Source: Cycloclasticus sp.
Lineage (GTDB): Bacteria > Pseudomonadota > Gammaproteobacteria > Methylococcales > Cycloclasticaceae
NCBI GenBank assembly: GCA_002700385.1
Contig: PADC01000006.1
Coordinates: 620,001 to 684,000, forward strand
Length of the DNA stretch: 64,000 bases
Direction of reading: 5' to 3'
A model generated the notes under the pieces. That model worked only from the letters and a program-made list of their open reading frames with translations. It ran no database searches and was not told where the DNA came from. Of this stretch, positions 8,638-10,979 are shown one piece after another. A program made the translations under genes and the position numbers. Positions within the stretch are counted from its first letter, which is position 1, and every line of letters begins with the position of its first letter.

Positions 8638-8661
8638 AAAAAAAACGGGGCTTTCGCCCCG
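8638..8661 (-). terminator. rho-independent terminator of hsp20
   Basis: Read on the minus strand: CGGGGC, loop GAAA, GCCCCG, then eight T. Stem 8646-8661, T-run 8638-8645. It lies 22 bases after the hsp20 stop and separates it from msrPQ. Confidence 0.9.
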
Positions 8662-8682
8662 CTCGGTTTCAGACAACCTAAA

Positions 8683-9123
8683 TTAACTATCGTTACTCTT
8701 AACCTTAATTCGTTTTGCCTGCTGTACAGGCTTTTTAGCCACAACCAGCTCTAAGACACCTTTATCATAATTCGCTGTGATGTTATCGGTGTCCGTGATA
8801 TCGGGCAAAACAAAACGACGGAAAAAACTGCCACTCATGCGTTCAACACGCCTGTAACCATCTTTCTCTTCTTTAGACTCTTGTGTCCGCTCACCTTTTA
8901 CGGTGAGTACACCGTCTTTCATGCTCACCTCAATATCCTCGGGTTTAACCCCGGGTATATCAGCATGGACAACAAAGCGGTCATCTTCTTCTTTAATATC
9001 TACGGCAGGCGTCCAAGTCGCAATGGAAGAAGCGCTGTCTTCATGCTCATCCAAAAAACGCTGATTCACATCATGATTAAACTGTTTCAATAGTTGCCAA
9101 GGCTCATATTTTACTAATGTCAT
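8683..9123 (-). CDS. small heat shock protein, Hsp20/alpha-crystallin family
   Basis: An ATP-independent holdase that binds unfolding proteins. 146 residues. The alpha-crystallin domain spans about residues 38-140 (WTPAVDIKEEDDRFVVHADIPGVKPEDIEVSMKDG in short pieces), with GVLELVVAKK (the family GxLxxxxPK-type region) and the C-terminal oligomerisation motif RIKV. Two ATGs follow one another; the second (9123) has AGGAG 7 bases away and is preferred, the first (9126) only 4. A sigma-32-type promoter precedes it and a strong terminator follows, so it is a single-gene heat-shock unit. Confidence 0.93.
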   Translation of the reverse strand: MTLVKYEPWQLLKQFNHDVNQRFLDEHEDSASSIATWTPAVDIKEEDDRFVVHADIPGVKPEDIEVSMKDGVLTVKGERTQESKEEKDGYRRVERMSGSFFRRFVLPDITDTDNITANYDKGVLELVVAKKPVQQAKRIKVKSNDS

Positions 9124-9138
9124 CATCTTTCTCCTGCA

Positions 9139-9158
9139 TTATTAATCACAATTAATAA
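9139..9158. repeat. 20-bp palindrome at the hsp20 transcription start
   Basis: TTATTAAT (9139-9146), CACA, ATTAATAA (9151-9158): exact inverted repeat. It overlaps the downstream edge of the -10 box and the expected start point (about 9149), a position where a repressor would block initiation. Confidence 0.55.
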
Positions 9159-9185
9159 ATGAGGCTGTTGGTTATTTTTTTCAAG
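9156..9185 (-). promoter_or_regulatory. sigma-32 (heat-shock) promoter of hsp20
   Basis: On the minus strand CTTGAAA (9185-9179), 14 bases, CCTCATTTA (9164-9156), one mismatch from the RpoH -10 consensus CCCCATTTA. The expected start is about 26 bases before the ATG at 9123. The TGA stop of the MFS gene (9183-9181) lies inside the -35 box. Confidence 0.75.
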
Positions 9186-10506
9186 GTTTAGTCGGTTTTT
9201 CGTGATTTTTTATAAAAAACACAGCCGCTGAAGTTATCAAACAAAACCCACCAAAAACGATAAAATTAATATTCAAACCAAGGGCTGCAGCCACCAAAGC
9301 ACCCGCCAGCAACGGCCCAACAATTGAACCGACTCGCCCAATTCCTAACGCCCAACCCACCCCGGTGGAACGTATATGTGTTGGGTACATATAACTACTT
9401 AACGCATTTAAGCTGACTTGGCCACCTACAATAAAAAAACCGGCAAAGAATGACAAAATCATCACCATGTTTATGGATGAGCCAAACTGACCGACAGCCA
9501 TCATGCTGATAGCTCCTAAGATAAAGCAAATGGTTAATACTATTTTGGACCCCCAATGCGCTATTAGCCTCGCCAGTATGAAAGGGGCTACTGCACCGCC
9601 AACATTCAGGACGACAACGGTCTTTGTTGCATCGTCTAACTGATACCCTGCTTCAACGAGCAAGGTCGGTACCCAACTATATAAAAAGTAAGCCACCATT
9701 AAATTAAAAAAGAAAACCAGCCAAATCAGCAAAGTATCCGTCTGTCGACCGTCCATAAAAAGTGCTTTAACAGGAAAATGCTTTTCTACAGCATGGTGTT
9801 GGAATTTACTATCGGGTTCTACATCGAAGCGTCGTTCTATCTTTTTTGCAATGCGGCAAAGCACCGCATCATTGTCATCATCATGCTCTATAAGGAAACG
9901 AGGAGATTCTGGCAGGGCAAACATCAATACCGGGACTAACAACAGGGGCATAATACCACCCACATAAAACAAAGACTCCCACCCATAAACAGGGATGATT
10001 TCCGATGCAACCAAGCCGCCTGAAATGCCGCCAATCGGCATACCAAGAAAAATCACGGCGATGGCAATATTTCTATGCCGTGTTGATACATATTCTGTCA
10101 TCAAGGCCATCGCATTTGGCAAAGCACCGCCCAAGCCCAAGCCTGTTAAAAAACGAAGTAACACAAGGTCGTTATAGTGATCAATAAACCCCGTCAGCAA
10201 GGTGCATAAACCAAAGGTAAATACACTCAATATAACGGCCGAACGGCGGCCCAATTTATCACCAACCGGTCCCATAATCAGTGCGCCCAACATCATTCCG
10301 AATAACCCTGCTGAGAAAACATAACCAAGTTCACTCTTAGGAATATTGAGCTCTTCACTTAAATTGGGTGCTGCAAAAGCAATAGCCAATACATCAAAGC
10401 CATCAAAGATAATAATAAGCGCACAAAAAAACATCACGAGTCGTTGAAAAACACCTAACGGGTTTTCTTCAATAATCGCCGCCATATCAAGCACTTTTTC
10501 ATTCAT
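9181..10506 (-). CDS. MFS transporter, aromatic acid:H+ symporter (PcaK/BenK) type
   Basis: An inner-membrane secondary carrier of 441 residues with 12 predicted segments. The TM2-TM3 loop signature is GPVGDKLGRRSA. The first helix DGFDVLAIAFAAP and GLGLGGALPNAMALMTEY are characteristic of the AAHS subfamily that imports 4-hydroxybenzoate, benzoate or related acids. A strong SD (AAGGAGGCGAG) sets the start at 10506, and ATGA couples it to the upstream luciferase-domain gene. The substrate is inferred from subfamily only; no ring-cleavage genes lie in the window. Confidence 0.85.
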   Translation of the reverse strand: MNEKVLDMAAIIEENPLGVFQRLVMFFCALIIIFDGFDVLAIAFAAPNLSEELNIPKSELGYVFSAGLFGMMLGALIMGPVGDKLGRRSAVILSVFTFGLCTLLTGFIDHYNDLVLLRFLTGLGLGGALPNAMALMTEYVSTRHRNIAIAVIFLGMPIGGISGGLVASEIIPVYGWESLFYVGGIMPLLLVPVLMFALPESPRFLIEHDDDNDAVLCRIAKKIERRFDVEPDSKFQHHAVEKHFPVKALFMDGRQTDTLLIWLVFFFNLMVAYFLYSWVPTLLVEAGYQLDDATKTVVVLNVGGAVAPFILARLIAHWGSKIVLTICFILGAISMMAVGQFGSSINMVMILSFFAGFFIVGGQVSLNALSSYMYPTHIRSTGVGWALGIGRVGSIVGPLLAGALVAAALGLNINFIVFGGFCLITSAAVFFIKNHEKPTKP

Positions 10507-10979
10507 AACTCGCCTCCTTTTGTTGCTGTTGCATTCTTTAATGATGCATTGACTATTTGCATGACAATATCCATTTCTTCGATATTTCTGGGCGCATAAA
10601 TCAAGGCAATGGTTTCGGGAATAAGCCCACCGCCCGCCAACGGGTGCTGCTCTCCCCAATTCTTCTCTATCACTGTTTGAAAATCTTCAGCCGATAAAGC
10701 CATATGCAAACTACCATCATAAGCAGGATGAATATGAGCGAATTCTCGCCCAATCATAAAACCATCCGTGCAATTACAAGGTTTATCTTCACTTAACCAA
10801 AGCGCCTCAGCCCCTGGTACAGAAATCATACTGGGGCGACGGCTCACCTCATCGAAACAAAATAGTTTTTCTTTAAACAGTTGATGACATTCAGCGCTTG
10901 GGTTTTGCGTTAATTGCTCGTGTGGGTTGGTATTCGTTGTTTTTGGACGTTCGCCTTCTCTATTTGGTATGTTTAACAT
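10503..10979 (-). CDS. luciferase-domain (DUF5519-like) protein
   Basis: 158 residues, soluble, no signal peptide. From memory of the family, the pattern VPGAEALWL, GREFAHIHPAYDGSLHMAL, WGEQHPLAG, ALIYAPRNIEE matches the small luciferase-domain family. His residues in AHIHP and EQHPLA are conserved in that family and could bind a ligand or metal. Three Cys lie in the middle (FCFDE, PCNCTD). The biochemical function is unknown. Its stop overlaps the MFS start in ATGA, so the two proteins are likely made together, perhaps for the same aromatic or fatty substrate. Confidence 0.65.
   Translation of the reverse strand: MLNIPNREGERPKTTNTNPHEQLTQNPSAECHQLFKEKLFCFDEVSRRPSMISVPGAEALWLSEDKPCNCTDGFMIGREFAHIHPAYDGSLHMALSAEDFQTVIEKNWGEQHPLAGGGLIPETIALIYAPRNIEEMDIVMQIVNASLKNATATKGGEL

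Follow-up and report, generated by a model that had tools for sequence, protein, structure and literature searches.

The window analyzed here is a 64,000-nucleotide stretch of a Cycloclasticus contig, and the genes of interest lie on its minus strand around an hsp20 gene (8683 to 9126). The product of this gene was identified as a small heat-shock protein by its match to Pfam PF00011 (HSP20; 90.6 bits), and the gene is followed by a hairpin and T run that resemble a terminator (8664 to 8643, minus strand), in keeping with the preliminary description of an hsp20 gene that has its own terminator. A Shine-Dalgarno sequence, AGGAG, was found at 9135 to 9131. The second ATG of the reading frame (9123 to 9121) is the likelier start codon, since hsp20 of the closest relative (G004) starts there and since this ATG is 7 nt from AGGAG. 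Upstream of hsp20 is a gene for an MFS transporter of 441 amino acids (9181 to 10506, minus strand, with its start ATG at 10506), which matched Pfam MFS_1 with 189.7 bits when searched with a query that carried one extra 5' codon. The MFS gene is in turn preceded by a gene for a luciferase-domain protein (10503 to 10979, minus strand; PF17648, 75 bits). The stop codon of the luciferase-domain gene and the start codon of the MFS gene overlap as ATGA at 10503 to 10506, which suggests that the two genes form one operon. The gap between the MFS stop codon and hsp20 is 54 bp.

A predicted RpoH (sigma32) promoter precedes hsp20. Its -35 box, CTTGAAA (9185 to 9179), a spacer of 14 nt (9178 to 9165), and its -10 box, CCTCATTTA (9164 to 9156), were all confirmed on the minus strand at the positions at which they had originally been reported, and the usual promoter geometry would place the transcription start about 6 to 7 nt past the -10 box, at 9150 to 9149. 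The 3' end of the MFS gene reads CCT TGA, and both the open reading frame (ORF) list and the table of junctions place this TGA (9183 to 9181) inside CTTGAAA; the stop codon and the -35 box therefore do share bases, as had been claimed. CTTGAAA contains TTGAA, the -35 core of RpoH promoters, and CCTCATTTA is one change from the CCCCATNTA type, which agrees with the earlier statement that it is one base from the RpoH consensus. TTGAA is given as the -35 consensus, and CnATnT, which CCTCATTTA fits, as the form of the -10 element, in PMC9866376. The spacing is also suitable, being 15 nt when counted from CTTGAA (14 nt from CTTGAAA); spacings of 14 to 15 nt were found in relatives from the genus (L075 to L078) as well as in the best sites of eight E. 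coli K-12 heat-shock genes. Directly downstream of the boxes is a heat-shock gene, hsp20 itself, and the genome of the window (G000) encodes a protein of the RpoH family (TIGR02392; 382 bits versus a curated cutoff of 323). In E. coli K-12, the best site ahead of clpB, an RpoH promoter, has both the CTTGAA -35 box and a -10 box identical to that of the window; it differs in its spacer (14 nt versus 15 nt in the window) and in that the yfiH stop codon is 65 nt before the box.

The pattern CTTGAAN{12,17}CCNCATNTA occurred once in the window, compared with a mean of 0.04 in shuffled sequences (4 of 100 shuffles had one), and three times in the 2.52-Mb genome, compared with none for the reversed control. 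The three genomic matches were located before hsp20, before a gene for an HSP90 (HtpG-like) protein, and inside an unrelated 341-amino-acid ORF, the last of these probably being a chance match. When a looser -10 was allowed, 12 matches were found genome-wide, which is barely above the 9 of the control. Since the looser pattern was matched about as often as its reversal, only the stricter pattern is informative. We regard the RpoH promoter before hsp20 as very probably real, and as a strong reading of this region. Of the interpretation offered in the preliminary description, then, the RpoH promoter is supported by the sequence, and the mutual constraint between stop codon and promoter is unsupported, as detailed below. 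We infer that RpoH would be used here, with a start near 9149 to 9150 and induction by heat, and that selection would keep the box.

Two further candidate elements near the predicted start were considered. A perfect 8-bp inverted repeat, TTATTAATCACAATTAATAA (9139 to 9158), spans the predicted start site. Its exact sequence occurs in the genome only at 9139 to 9158, and with 2 mismatches it matched 14 other places, versus 2 for the reversed control. This operator-like repeat may be the site of a regulator, but no support for one was found, and the place that has the same central bases (C3:63303) falls inside a 435-amino-acid ORF. An RNA thermometer in the short hsp20 leader was rejected, as Rfam gave no match there at E values up to 1; the sole weak match, LPR69 (19.2 bits against a gathering threshold of 40), was on the plus strand at 8643 to 8714, outside the leader. 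The predicted leader also folds no better than shuffled sequences (z = 0.58).

The junction was then compared across the genus. Among 18 genomes searched, hsp20 was found in 6, and CTTGAAA was present upstream of the gene in all 6. The -10 element varied among these loci and was without a clear form in G015, where no same-strand ORF of at least 100 amino acids ended near the hsp20 box (L076). In the other five genomes (G000, G004, G012, G014, and G017), hsp20 follows the MFS gene. The comparison of this junction that had been proposed bore out the -35 box, which is retained at all five junctions, but the TGA of the box served as the MFS stop codon at only three of them (G000, G014, and G017). 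The MFS gene of G012 ends at a TAA with 2 nt between stop and box, one extra base just upstream having shifted the frame; that of G004 ends at a TGA with 14 nt between stop and box, and here the frame is shifted by a 10-base tandem repeat of ATGAAAAACC just upstream. The box was retained in both cases. At the junctions with the overlap, the box forces the MFS gene to have NCT (P, A, or S) as its last codon, in a C-terminal tail that varies.

A close MFS homologue (at least 71% identity) was present in 11 of the 18 genomes, the sequence of G013 being cut before the end of the MFS gene. Five genomes have an intact MFS end and no adjoining hsp20 was seen in them (G001, G002, G003, G006, and G007). 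CTTGAA was absent within 300 nt after the MFS stop codon in G001, G002, G006, and G007 and within the 170 nt between the stop codon and the contig end in G003. The completeness of these genomes was 89% (G001), 73% (G002), 80% (G003), 80% (G006), and 99% (G007), and given this incompleteness, hsp20 may be located elsewhere in some of them. The box accompanies hsp20 and not the MFS stop codon. After the MFS stop codon of G007 (L043), a promoter-like but altered sequence, CCTGGAAA, was observed with no hsp20 seen, and this may be the remnant of a decayed promoter. In a tree of the MFS proteins, G000, G001, G014, and G017 grouped together (support, 96/94), and in a tree of the hsp20 products, G000 paired with G004 (93/90) and G012 with G014 and G017 (93/99). 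The histories of the two genes may thus differ, with recombination at the junction being possible, and because the trees disagree, gains and losses of the overlap were left uncounted.

Two larger sets of loci were used to determine how often an upstream stop codon falls in the -35 box; the literature consulted gave no figure for this frequency in RpoH promoters. The first set consisted of 80 hsp20 loci from public genomes, 77 of which were usable after two were dropped for too little upstream sequence and one because no start was found. In 8 of the 77 (L077, L080, L109, L112, L113, L114, L115, and L122), the stop codon of an upstream ORF of at least 100 amino acids was the TGA within a CTTGAA or ATTGAA box; L127, with a poor site and TAA as the stop codon, was left out of the count. 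The upstream gene of L077 is the MFS gene, and the upstream ORFs of L080, L112, L113, and L122 belong to Pfam families, those of L112, L113, and L122 being Dus genes. The upstream ORFs of L109, L114, and L115 matched no Pfam family and may be spurious.

The second set was collected with CTTGAAN{13,15}CCCCATNTA from 276 gammaproteobacterial genomes, blind to both gene and overlap. This strict pattern gave 126 sites in 89 genomes, versus 3 for the reversed pattern, and the removal of 2 sites at contig ends left 124 for analysis, among them one from the genome under study (L033). With upstream ORFs called by length, some of them unreliably, 62 sites followed a same-strand ORF, 28 were divergent, 16 were inside a same-strand ORF, 16 were inside an opposite ORF, and 2 had no ORF within 400 nt. 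The upstream stop codon was exactly the TGA of the box at nine sites, which are not all independent, as L230 is near-identical to L227 and other loci may be related. Among eligible ORFs, i.e., those with a stop codon within positions -150 to +60, 9 of 53 (17.0%) ended in the box, versus 17.6% expected (binomial P = 1.0). The expected value was obtained from the 28 divergent sites by letting a reading frame enter at a random point of the upstream 150 nt and determining how often its first stop codon was that of the box; the other classes gave values of 15.5% (codirectional), 25.4% (inside an opposite ORF), and 20.0% (inside a same-strand ORF). When the upstream span was set to 60, 100, 200, or 300 nt, the expected frequencies were 25.4, 21.2, 15.4, and 12.2%, versus 22.0, 19.1, 16.1, and 14.8% observed, and none of the differences was significant (P = 0.55 to 1.0 across the five sizes). 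An effect of the overlap that is too small to alter these frequencies may exist.

Eight of the nine upstream ORFs were scanned, L230 being the one left out; seven belonged to a Pfam family, and that of L170 belonged to none. The genes that follow these eight encode HslV-like proteasome-type proteins (two), HSP90 (one), HSP70 (two), HSP20 (two), and GrpE (one). In L255 and L283, an RpoH-type promoter ahead of dnaK (HSP70) has the grpE stop codon within its -35 box. Eight upstream ORFs of the set end at position +16, in the spacer; their loci look alike, and the cluster is probably a product of shared ancestry.

A comparable arrangement is known from E. coli. In strain K-12, the TGA of ftsN lies inside GTTGAA, which is followed after 14 nt by CCCCATCTA, before hslV. 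The -35 box of this best site thus holds the upstream stop codon and has a heat-shock gene next to it, as in the window; it differs in having G for C at the first base of the -35 box, CCCCATCTA as its -10 box, other genes, and a spacer that, counted from the 6-base box, is 14 nt in K-12 and 15 nt in the window. The K-12 site agrees with the sigma32 promoter of hslVU described in PMC10044804, the boxes of which are 14 bases apart and which contains seven consecutive C residues. The upstream neighbor is on the same strand for four of the eight K-12 heat-shock genes, and among these four only hslV has the stop codon in its box. According to PMC5493296, 26 of 133 RpoH holoenzyme sites are inside ORFs, and therefore the overlap of an RpoH site with a gene is familiar. 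The elements of those sites overlap upstream coding sequence, as they do here, but the sites lie within an ORF, whereas the site in the window ends the ORF. The promoter model of PMC13377108 is noted there to recognize the stop codons of preceding genes. The site in the window adds a further example to a promoter class that is already known.

The overlap itself might be taken to mean that the stop codon and the -35 box are functionally coupled and that their overlap is selected, for instance because terminating ribosomes tune promoter access or read-through. The overlap is indeed present at three of the five junctions of the genus, and it recurs before HSP90, HSP70, HSP20, GrpE, and HslV-like genes in other gammaproteobacteria. 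We nevertheless consider such coupling very unlikely, given that the overlap is no more frequent than the null predicts, that two relatives separated the stop codon and the box while retaining both elements, that a same-strand ORF crosses the box in another frame at 16 of the 124 sites, and that the upstream ORF ends just past the box at 11 more. The claim that the two elements constrain each other was not supported, on the same two principal grounds (separation in two of the five relatives and an overlap frequency of 17.0% against 17.6%); constraint reaches no further than the final codon of the variable MFS tail.

We consider it highly likely instead that an ordinary RpoH promoter drives hsp20 and that its overlap with the MFS stop codon is a by-product of the TGA in CTTGAA. 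In this mechanism, RpoH (sigma32) would direct transcription of hsp20 up to the gene's own terminator, and any upstream frame that drifted into CTTGAA in the right phase would have to end at the built-in TGA. The TGA within CTTGAA would account for the position of the MFS stop codon in the -35 box, and the MFS end would move by small insertions and deletions because the C-terminal tail is variable, with the box staying with hsp20. The overlap looks designed, yet it occurs at about the frequency predicted by the TGA inside CTTGAA, and therefore no special explanation is called for at ftsN-hslV or, in two other genomes, at grpE-dnaK. The comparison within the genus also shows a promoter box that is retained whether or not the adjacent stop codon lies within it.

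An alternative is that hsp20 is expressed mainly by read-through from the MFS operon or from a sigma70 promoter and that the RpoH-like boxes are there by chance. Since none of the listed terminators lies between the MFS stop codon and hsp20, some read-through is likely. As a main source of hsp20 transcripts, however, this is highly improbable, because nothing resembling a sigma70 promoter was listed for the 54-bp gap, matches to the pattern are few, and CTTGAA is retained ahead of hsp20 but was not seen at junctions where hsp20 does not follow. Still harder to credit is the proposal that ribosomes terminating on the MFS gene, or the fixed stop codon, modulate the RpoH promoter and so couple MFS translation to hsp20 induction.

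Least probable of all is the reading in which read-through RNA masks its Shine-Dalgarno region by base pairing with the -10 box, leaving the RpoH transcript as the only one translated: this pairing was better than 97 to 98% of swapped controls in G012, G014, and G017 and slightly stronger than controls on average over 63 loci (mean energy, -6.6 versus -5.9 kcal/mol), but it was average in the window (58% of controls were at least as strong) and weak in G004 (27%), its mean rank was 0.42 over the 63 loci, and the folding of read-through segments surpasses that of shuffled sequences by only 0.9 to 1.9 standard deviations. The pairing was rejected for this locus, being found in three related genomes and absent from the window. 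In those three genomes, the -10 box and the Shine-Dalgarno region are complementary (L036 in G017, L038 in G014, and L042 in G012), and in G014 and G017 the complementary segments read CCTATTTAA and TTAAATAGG.
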